From positions 124,001-188,000 of the forward strand of contig NZ_QGGB01000009.1 in the NCBI RefSeq assembly GCF_003150675.1: a stretch of 64,000 nt of DNA, read 5' to 3'. Position numbers and translations under genes: made by a program. The notes under the pieces were generated by a model, which saw only the letters and a program-made list of their open reading frames with translations, was not told where the DNA came from and did not search any database. Below are positions 12,638 to 61,131 of the stretch, piece by piece; positions within the stretch are counted from its first letter, which is position 1; each line of letters begins with the position of its first letter. This DNA comes from Rhodohalobacter mucosus. Its GTDB lineage: Bacteria > Bacteroidota > Rhodothermia > Balneolales > Balneolaceae.

Positions 12638-12712
12638 AAAACGTCGGGGAAGTTGGGTTTTCAACCGGAAACGACGTTGTGGCAAAATAGGAATCAATCA
12701 GGCAGTAGAAAC

Positions 12713-12857
12713 TCCCCTCCTTTTTAAGGAGGGGCCGGGGGTGGTTTCAGATCGTATAACGGATTAAAAATTTTGAAACTAACTTATTAGCCTTATTGAA
12801 CCACCCCTATATCTCCACCTTGTCCCATTGGGATCCCAACGGGGGAAAAGGAGGGGA
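12713..12857. repeat. Palindromic intergenic element (REP/MITE-like)
   Basis: This 145-base unit lies between convergent cdaA and meaB. The outer arms TCCCCTCCTTTT (12713-12724) and AAAAGGAGGGGA (12846-12857) pair perfectly. The inner arms GGGGGTGGTT (12737-12746) and AACCACCCCT (12799-12808) pair 9 of 10. The left arm also folds on itself (CCCCTCCTT / AAGGAGGGG, 3-base loop), and the right side holds the palindrome TTGGGATCCCAA (12828-12839). The nested structure and GC-rich arms in AT-rich surroundings suggest a dispersed non-autonomous repeat that may also act as a bidirectional terminator. Only one copy is in the window. Confidence 0.6.
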
Positions 12858-38160: not shown

Positions 38161-38450
38161 ATGCGGATTGAGCCGCGGATTTAGCAGATGGTGCAGATTT
38201 CGCTGGTGGTTGTTCTTTGGGTAGACGCAGATATGAGATTCGAACGATTGTTCAAAGATTTTCTGTAAGGGGATGCGTTTTTGATGTTCTTACTTATACG
38301 CAAGCGAGAACATGGGATCAAGATTACATCATAGCCATCCAGAAAATTGAAATCCATCCCGCTACGGTAATAATCATTCTATTCATTCCACTTTCCCGCC
38401 ACCTATCAGTGAAATCTGCGTAATCAGTGAAACCTGCTAAACCCGCGTCC
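38161..38450. repeat. Degenerate inverted repeat region between convergent genes
   Basis: The 290 bases between the glycosyltransferase and carB carry a second type of intergenic element. The left part (38170-38210) reads CGCGGATTTAGCAGAT, then GCAGATTTCGCTGGTGG. The right part (38396-38450) contains the reverse-complement relatives CCACC, GTGAAATCTGC and CCTGCTAAACCCGCG. Within the right part, ATCAGTGAAATCTGCGTA is followed directly by the related ATCAGTGAAACCTGCTA, an 18-base tandem pair. The centre (38211-38390) is AT-rich, without a credible gene. It looks like a mobile or recombinogenic repeat that lost its content. Confidence 0.5.
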
Positions 38451-59220: not shown

Positions 59221-60429
59221 TCAGGCTGCAAGCACTTTGGAGACCTCTTCCGCTGCTTCCTTGAGCAGTACGGCTGATATTACATTCAGGTCGCTGTTGT
59301 CAATAATCTCTTTGGCCTCTTCAGCGTTGGTTCCCTGCAGTCGCACAATAATGGGAACGTCTTCCACTTTTTTGGCTATTTCAGGATCTTTGATTGCTTC
59401 AATCACGCCATTGGCTACCCGATCGCAGCGAACAATGCCGCCGAAAATATTGATAAGTATCGCTTGCACGTTGGGATCTTCGAGGATAATCCGGAATCCG
59501 TTCTTTACGGTTTCCACATTGGCCCCACCGCCAACATCGAGGAAGTTTGCAGGCTCGCCGCCTGATAGCTTGATGATATCCATGGTAGCCATTGCCAGTC
59601 CGGCGCCGTTCACCATGCAACCAACATTCCCGTCAAGTTTGATGTAGTTCAGGTCATATTTGGAGGCTTCCAGTTCTATCGGATTTTCTTCGGATGTATC
59701 GCGCAGCTCCTGAATATCCTTGTGGCGATAGGTCGCATTGCCGTCGAAGGTAACTTTGGCGTCCAGTGCCAGTACGTCTCCTTGGGGTGTTAAGACGAGA
59801 GGGTTAATCTCCACCATGTCGGCATCCTTTTCAACATAAAAATTGTAGAGCTTGTTGATAAACTTTACGGCCTTTTTGAAAGCATCTCCCTCAAAGCCAA
59901 GGGCGAATGCCAGCCTGCGCGCCTGGTTTGGTGCCAGATCCATTCCCGGCTCCACCCACTCTTTTACGATCTTCTCGGGTGTTTCCTCTGCAACGGTCTC
60001 AATTTCAACACCGCCTTCGGTGGATACCATAATCACATTCTGGCTTTTTGCGCGATCGAGCAGAATTCCAAGATAAAACTCTTTCTCAATGTCCACTCCA
60101 TCCGTTACATAGAGGGTTTTCACCTCCTGACCCTCTTCCCCGGTTTGTATAGTTACCAGGGTATCTCCCAGCAGCGATTCAGCGGCATCTTGTACTTCTT
60201 CAATGGTTTTACAAAGAATGACGCCCTTTGCATTGCTCTTTTTGGTGCGGCCCTTTCCCCGGCCGCCGGCATGAATCTGGGCTTTTACAACAAACAGGTC
60301 CGTACCGCTTTCTTTCATTTCGCGGGCTGCTTCCACAGCCTCTTCAACTGAAGTGGCGGCTACACCATCGGGTACAGCAACTCCATACTCTTTAAAAAGC
60401 TCTTTGGCTTGGTACTCATGAATTTTCAT
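59221..60429 (-). CDS. sucC: Succinyl-CoA ligase subunit beta
   Basis: A 402-residue ATP-grasp subunit. It begins with the standard KIHEYQAKELFKEYGV. Other motifs are VVKAQIHAGGRGKG and the phosphate-binding/CoA ligase segment VNGAGLAMATMDIIKLSGG, with NIFGGIVRCDRVANGV near the C-terminus. Nucleotide specificity (ATP or GTP) is not readable. It converts succinyl-CoA, including that from methylmalonyl-CoA mutase, to succinate. sucD is not adjacent, so the alpha subunit is encoded elsewhere. Length is slightly over the usual 388-390 because of short insertions. Confidence 0.96.
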   Translation of the reverse strand: MKIHEYQAKELFKEYGVAVPDGVAATSVEEAVEAAREMKESGTDLFVVKAQIHAGGRGKGRTKKSNAKGVILCKTIEEVQDAAESLLGDTLVTIQTGEEGQEVKTLYVTDGVDIEKEFYLGILLDRAKSQNVIMVSTEGGVEIETVAEETPEKIVKEWVEPGMDLAPNQARRLAFALGFEGDAFKKAVKFINKLYNFYVEKDADMVEINPLVLTPQGDVLALDAKVTFDGNATYRHKDIQELRDTSEENPIELEASKYDLNYIKLDGNVGCMVNGAGLAMATMDIIKLSGGEPANFLDVGGGANVETVKNGFRIILEDPNVQAILINIFGGIVRCDRVANGVIEAIKDPEIAKKVEDVPIIVRLQGTNAEEAKEIIDNSDLNVISAVLLKEAAEEVSKVLAA

Positions 60430-60576
60430 AATGATAAATCAGGTTCTGTCAGCGTGTTCAGGTTAGAGTAAATTCGGGTCAATAATACCCAAATCGGGAA
60501 GTAAATAAAAGTTCGCCGGATCATTCATTGTAAGGGATTGGGGTTTTTTGATTCTTACAACAAAGAGGAATAAAAA

Positions 60577-61131
60577 ATGAGAGGGATCATGAAACGAAGA
60601 CGAAGACAGAAGGACATATGGTATAGTGAAATGAGAACGGCACGCGAAGTGCCCCTGTTTGTTCAGCCTGTAATTGCAGAAAAGTTGATCTCGGGTCTTA
60701 AGTGGAGCTGTGAAAACCGCGGACTTCGGATATACGACTATGCCATTCTGCCCGACCGGCTGTTAATTATCGGCAATACCGCATGGGGTAACCTAAGCGA
60801 TGTGCTCGATTCATTCATGGAGTTTTCATCCAAAGCTGTGATGCTGATGCTTAAAAATGGGAATCCGAATCTTCAATCTTCATGGATGGTGTCGCTTATG
60901 ATGGATGATAAACCCGGAGGAAAGCTTTCGGGGTCAGGAATCTGGCACAAGGAGGTGCTGAGGAATCACCTGTTCAGACAGGACGGCATTGATAGCGCAT
61001 CGCAGCGAATACAGAACGCACCCGTGGCCATGGGTTGGGTCGTTAAAGCGGAGCATTACCGTTACAGCAGTGCATGCCCGGCAAATCCGCTGGAAGGGTG
61101 GATTGTGGAAGCGGTGGATCCCTGGAGCTGA
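60577..61131 (+). CDS. RAYT/Y1-transposase-like protein lacking catalytic residues
   Basis: A 184-residue protein with the outline of REP-associated tyrosine transposases: the helix VIAEKLISGLKWSCENRGLR, a strand at YAILPDRLLIIG, IWHKEVLRNHLFR, and QNAPVAMGWVVKAEHYRYSS. In active members the second segment reads (M/L)PxHxH (HUH) and the last contains a catalytic Tyr in YI.NNPV.AG. Here the HUH histidines are Arg and Leu, and the Tyr position is Gln/Arg. A ribosome-binding site (AGAGGA) precedes ATG 60577. The open frame is intact over the full domain, so it is a conserved or recently inactivated relative, not an obvious pseudogene. Confidence 0.7.
   Translation: MRGIMKRRRRQKDIWYSEMRTAREVPLFVQPVIAEKLISGLKWSCENRGLRIYDYAILPDRLLIIGNTAWGNLSDVLDSFMEFSSKAVMLMLKNGNPNLQSSWMVSLMMDDKPGGKLSGSGIWHKEVLRNHLFRQDGIDSASQRIQNAPVAMGWVVKAEHYRYSSACPANPLEGWIVEAVDPWS

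Follow-up and report, generated by a model that had tools for sequence, protein, structure and literature searches.

A catalytically dead RAYT homologue beside sucC

The window, by which we mean the whole stretch of 64,000 nucleotides of Rhodohalobacter mucosus DNA that was analysed, contains a gene encoding a homologue of the REP-associated tyrosine transposases (RAYTs, or TnpA-REP proteins) that is divergently oriented with respect to sucC. RAYTs are textbook examples of domesticated prokaryotic transposases and, to our knowledge, those described so far all keep their catalytic site. The locus comprises the following features.

59221 to 60429, minus strand: sucC, the divergent and constant neighbour (28/28 dead loci)
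60529 to 60558, plus strand: ECF-promoter-like element TGTAAGG-N17-TCTTAC, ahead of the dead RAYT gene
60577 to 61131, plus strand: catalytically dead RAYT/TnpA-REP homologue; open frame of 184 aa from its ATG, or 180 aa from an alternative start at 60592
60592 to 60621, plus strand: basic N-terminus MKRRRRQKDI, also basic in orthologues by comparison
60754 to 60765, plus strand: lost HUH motif, D-R-L-L codons replacing the N-H-u-H of active relatives
61006 to 61008, plus strand: Arg codon at the alignment position of the catalytic tyrosine
61096 to 61128, plus strand: C-terminal tail GWIVEAVDPWS, with WIVEATDPWS as the conserved consensus of the dead family

A GAGG sequence at 60565–60568 lies upstream of the first ATG. 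Since orthologue starts align with the second ATG at 60592, the product may be the 180-residue form that begins M-K-R-R-R-R. The NCBIfam model for REP-associated tyrosine transposases (NF047646) matches residues 7–164 with an E-value of 2.2e-7, at a score of 30.9 bits that lies below the curated cut-off of 80, and matches all 24 aligned members of the dead family at E ≤ 0.01. A Pfam search gave no family match for the window protein.

Profile searches of 128 genomes of the order recovered 28 strong loci scoring 233–313 bits, after which the next matches fall to 104 bits. These loci are distributed over 27 genomes, of which 22 belong to the genus of the window, identified through named records as Rhodohalobacter and represented by 28 genomes in all, and five represent three sister genera; the named records of the family come from Rhodohalobacter, other Balneolaceae and two MAGs labelled Chitinophagaceae and Bacteroidetes. 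By this distribution, the dead form is common to most of Rhodohalobacter and to three sister genera. Six of the 28 genus genomes have no copy, four of which carry sucC with other neighbours, and the gene is therefore dispensable. One MAG (G024) contains two different pairs of sucC and dead RAYT on contigs C88 and C95 and is probably a mixed bin. No relative was found in viral contigs.

When the 28 dead rows were aligned with 37 intact relatives, all of which possess both histidines, the tyrosine and the asparagine that follows it, the column of the first histidine was found to hold Arg in 25 rows and Lys in three, and that of the second a hydrophobic residue in every row. The tyrosine column contains ten different residues but never Tyr, and the subsequent Asn is missing in 28/28. 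Neither HUH histidine is retained at any dead locus and, being common to 28 loci, the loss is no sequencing error. The initial annotation had noted in the window both the missing histidines and tyrosine and an intact frame with a ribosome-binding site, from which it argued against simple decay; each of these points holds, the first for the family as a whole.

The frame is open at all 28 loci, and identity to the window copy ranges from 33 to 56% among the 24 aligned members. Silent sites are saturated in most pairs, so estimates of dN/dS are given for the four least saturated distinct pairs (dS 0.14–0.73) among the nearest 25 of 300, where the ratios are 0.049, 0.142, 0.080 and 0.048. Together, the 28 open loci and ratios of 0.05–0.14 indicate that purifying selection maintains the frame. 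The absence of active-site residues is what a decaying transposase remnant with a frame left open by chance would display, but the number of open frames, their divergence and the dN/dS values refute this explanation, to which we attach a negligible probability.

Origin of the dead family and loss of flanking hairpins

Adjacency to sucC was observed in 25 of 25 loci in the neighbour comparison, with two more loci added subsequently and the second G024 copy assigned by coordinates. The opposite flank varies, since the largest group of homologous neighbours encompasses eight loci (among 23 named loci and the window). In other genera the upstream neighbours of sucC differ, with pyrR/pyrB-like genes (named by eye) as an example. 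A catalytically intact RAYT (L042), from a genome of another genus (G038), occupies the same sucC-adjacent spot. In a tree of 64 rows, a branch with 100/100 support sets the 27 distinct dead rows apart from all others, and one with 97/89 support separates the dead rows, L042 and a further intact protein, L039, from the other 35 intact rows, the placement of L039 being unsure owing to its long branch. Because the intact L042 shares the site and this branch joins it and L039 to the dead clade, the RAYT most likely inserted next to sucC before catalysis was lost.

The intact and dead genes also differ in their surroundings. Hairpins with a stem of at least six within 200 nt on both sides were present at 28 of 37 active RAYTs and at none of the 28 dead genes (the L018 and L160 loci each entered this count with a short flank); shuffled flanks reach the same criterion in 2.5–3.8% of cases. 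A stem 5-mer common to both sides was seen in 22/37 active genes compared with 0/28 dead genes. Fisher p-values for these two differences, uncorrected for relatedness, are 7.6e-11 and 9.5e-8, respectively. L042 is flanked by a hairpin pair with stems of 9 and 10, and one-sided hairpins of at least eight are left beside three dead genes (L020, L037 and L192). Comparison with the intact relatives thus indicates that a RAYT beside sucC lost the hairpins on its flanks as well as the HUH/Tyr active site.

The nearest described group is TnpA-REP/RAYT subclass 2.6 (Quentin et al., 2018; PMC6006769), with which the dead family shares the Y1 fold, a length of about 180 aa, a Trp near the final core strand and SS(A) after the helix of the tyrosine. 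The subclass signatures NH(LIV)H, WQ and YIHxNP are present in L042. By comparison with the subclass, the dead family is without both HUH histidines, the tyrosine, the N of the NP motif and flanking hairpins, and carries in addition the conserved C-terminal tail, before the position of which L042 ends.

Palindromic intergenic elements had been put forward as possible targets of the protein. The repeat at 12711–12857 is a REP-like palindrome (ACTCCCCTCCTTNNNAAGGAGGGG-CGGGGGTGGT), and the search for further copies that had been suggested yielded 44 BLAST matches in its own genome, several of them spaced at about 100 nt around 255,300–255,760 of contig C10. The proposal that it is the target of the dead RAYT was rejected: the exact 12713–12857 form occurs in only 10 of the 28 genus genomes, is absent from many carriers of the dead gene and has no copy beside that gene within the window.

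A promoter-like element common to the dead RAYT and to genes of DNA uptake and repair

In 27/27 intergenic rows (26 dead genes and L042), TGTAAGG is followed by TC(A/T)TA at an identical gap, and as the remaining two dead loci also have this element it accompanies all 28 dead genes and the intact, sucC-linked L042. Conversely, where the dead gene is missing, it was found upstream of sucC in 0/56 regions, after two of 58 had been dropped as too short. TGTAAGG-N17-TC(A/T)TA, which we take to resemble an ECF-type promoter, occurs at 37 sites in the genome of the window, and the reversed pattern, used as a control, at none. Because the pattern was learnt from the 27 rows, independently of com genes, this count reflects a pattern fitted to sucC-linked genes. 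A longer version ending CTCATAC, with a variable gap, had no matches in the same genome, and the fixed-gap form was adopted instead. With the final C included, all 28 genus genomes contain the element, at 3–31 sites each, compared with 0–3 for the control.

Seven of the 37 sites precede comEC, comEA-like, comM, ssb, recA, recQ and radC genes, seven precede Y1 genes (the dead RAYT and six others) and a further seven precede 23S_rRNA_IVP four-helix genes. Five are located ahead of nuclease-like genes (three PDDEXK_3, one DUF559 and one GIY-YIG) and two ahead of tyrosine integrases, with single sites at genes for a TPR protein and an HTH protein, both matched below threshold, and an LTD protein. 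No convincing gene was found at the remaining six (L196, L213, L217, L222, L225 and L226). In two other genomes, 15 of the 20 sites examined, from 26 listed, precede the same families. The core competence gene dprA (L286), tested as a positive, failed, there being no element in the upstream stretch examined; it may be part of an operon. On this evidence the set is apparently a competence/DNA-processing sigma regulon.

Among active RAYTs, the exact element lies within 300 nt of 16/37 and 21 are without the exact form, about seven of which have, by eye, TGTAAGG with another -10 form. It is absent from five of the 11 distinct Pfam Y1 frames in the window's genome. Five low-copy IS200-like Y1 proteins (L002–L006) all have the element; they recall subclass 1.2, which is described as generally without typical IS200 ends (PMC6006769). 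At four loci (L134, L135, L138 and L141), a GxxExxY-like gene directly follows the dead RAYT in the same orientation, and other GxxExxY genes have the element. A comM/YifB-like gene with the element (L224; G000 contig C9:189866) is located approximately 1.9 kb past the end of the window. The window itself holds a second exact copy at 38264–38293 (plus strand), between glycosyltransferase-like and carB-like genes (named by eye); no ORF of at least 40 aa starts within 200 nt of it, and it is perhaps a relic of a lost regulon gene.

A candidate for the cognate sigma factor is encoded between radC and a TPR gene. The protein is ECF-like, matching TIGR02989 (E 1.4e-9) and TIGR02937 (E 5.2e-7) at scores below the cut-offs, and its fold match is weak (model pTM 0.49; best Foldseek match sigmaE, E 1.8e-3). 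Amongst 30 such clusters, 22 have the element before radC, 22 before the TPR gene and 29 before one or both; five of the 30 have no radC match, in some cases from the locus ending short. From this position and the shared motif we infer that the element is the promoter of the radC-linked ECF sigma factor, which would thus be autoregulated.

In the late-competence regulons of streptococci, SigX/ComX regulon members include comEA/comEC, ssb, recA and radC types, and comEC, comEA-like, ssb and recA each have the element here. Those regulons resemble the arrangement proposed here in placing late competence genes under an alternative sigma factor; they differ in that the present candidate is ECF-like and sits in a radC-sigma-TPR cluster, and in that the present set has Y1 transposases, four-helix and GxxExxY proteins and no dprA. 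The shared element also implicates a sigma factor as a possible regulator of natural transformation in Balneolaceae, and it links Y1 transposases with DNA uptake.

Predicted fold and possible roles of the dead RAYT

The structure predicted from the alignment of 24 rows (pLDDT 81.7) has as its top structural match E. coli TnpA-REP 4er8 (Z 15.4, with an rmsd of 2.2 across 130 residues and 15% identity), so the RAYT outline recognised in the initial annotation extends to a Y1 fold that is predicted to be retained. The 4er8 entry is titled as a transposase bound to a REP hairpin and its family, unlike the dead RAYT, has an intact catalytic centre. IS200/IS605 TnpA proteins also have the Y1 fold in common with the model (Z 9.6–12), from which the dead RAYT differs in having neither catalytic residues nor flanking hairpins and in being a single copy beside sucC. 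Sequence searches of the PDB, with the single sequence or a profile, gave nothing relevant; a profile match to 3i2n (E 0.0018) was rejected because this is a WD-repeat protein.

With catalysis gone, the frame under selection and the Y1 fold predicted to be kept, a retained nucleic-acid-binding role is plausible. Since the active site and hairpins were lost, the gene was kept intact and the element is shared with uptake and repair genes, the dead RAYT has probably taken on a new function in DNA handling that involves no cutting. The reading that we favour, and hold with some confidence, is that of a REP-less, non-cleaving single-stranded DNA-binding protein exapted into an ECF-sigma/DNA-processing regulon. 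The radC-linked sigma factor would recognise TGTAAGG-N17-TC(A/T)TA as a promoter, the dead RAYT would be made while a DNA-uptake and recombination programme is on and, as a non-cleaving binder of single-stranded (hairpin) DNA, it might handle or shield incoming or exposed single strands. An accessory function of this kind is suggested by the fold, the absent active site, the basic N-terminus, the conserved tail and the element shared with uptake and recombination genes; the preference for single-stranded DNA in particular is drawn from fold and ancestry. Known TnpA-REP enzymes bind REP hairpins folded from single-stranded DNA and cut next to them (PMC8266576).

The constant presence of sucC, with a variable opposite flank, would suit a local regulator that occupies the shared intergenic region to control sucC, its own gene or both, as divergently encoded regulators do. 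However, the conserved sucC-side block AATAATACCCAAAT..AGGTAAATAAAAG persists with little change in three genomes that have no copy of the gene (L073–L075) and consequently looks like the leader of sucC itself, so that a sucC operator was rejected; besides this block, the only conserved one seen is the promoter-like element, copies of which occur far from sucC. We therefore regard local regulation as unlikely. Slightly better, though still rather doubtful, are the prospects of a dominant-negative modulator that pairs with the active Y1 transposases sharing the element, or competes with them for hairpins, keeping them in check for as long as the regulon is active. Some Y1 enzymes form dimers, which an inactive subunit could poison, and six other Y1 genes in the same genome carry the element; yet identity to other RAYTs is only about 17–28%, and several genomes with the dead gene (e.g. 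G007, G010, G017 and G020) contain no second RAYT match at E ≤ 1e-6.

Least favoured of these three is a function off DNA, for example with an RNA or protein partner, in which the C-terminal tail would be the working part. This tail is well conserved and absent from the intact sucC-linked relative, and tRNA-binding folds of the Thg1 type are among the weaker structural matches (Z 6–8), but these stand at a level that the tool calls common and were set aside, and the element ties the gene to DNA processing; we consider such a role quite improbable.

Extending the favoured reading of a non-cleaving single-stranded DNA-binding protein, we tentatively propose that a TnpA-REP stripped of catalysis and REPs became a protein dedicated to ssDNA handling or to the restraint of transposition in an ECF-sigma natural-transformation programme into which active Y1 transposases are also wired, a possibility that we hold with less conviction. 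We found no report of a dead RAYT family or of such a regulon in a literature search that left subscription papers largely outside its reach, and an earlier description is possible. The loci form an ordered series, from an intact, hairpin-flanked, sucC-linked RAYT with the element to a REP-less dead family under strong purifying selection, which makes RAYT function apart from cleavage directly testable.
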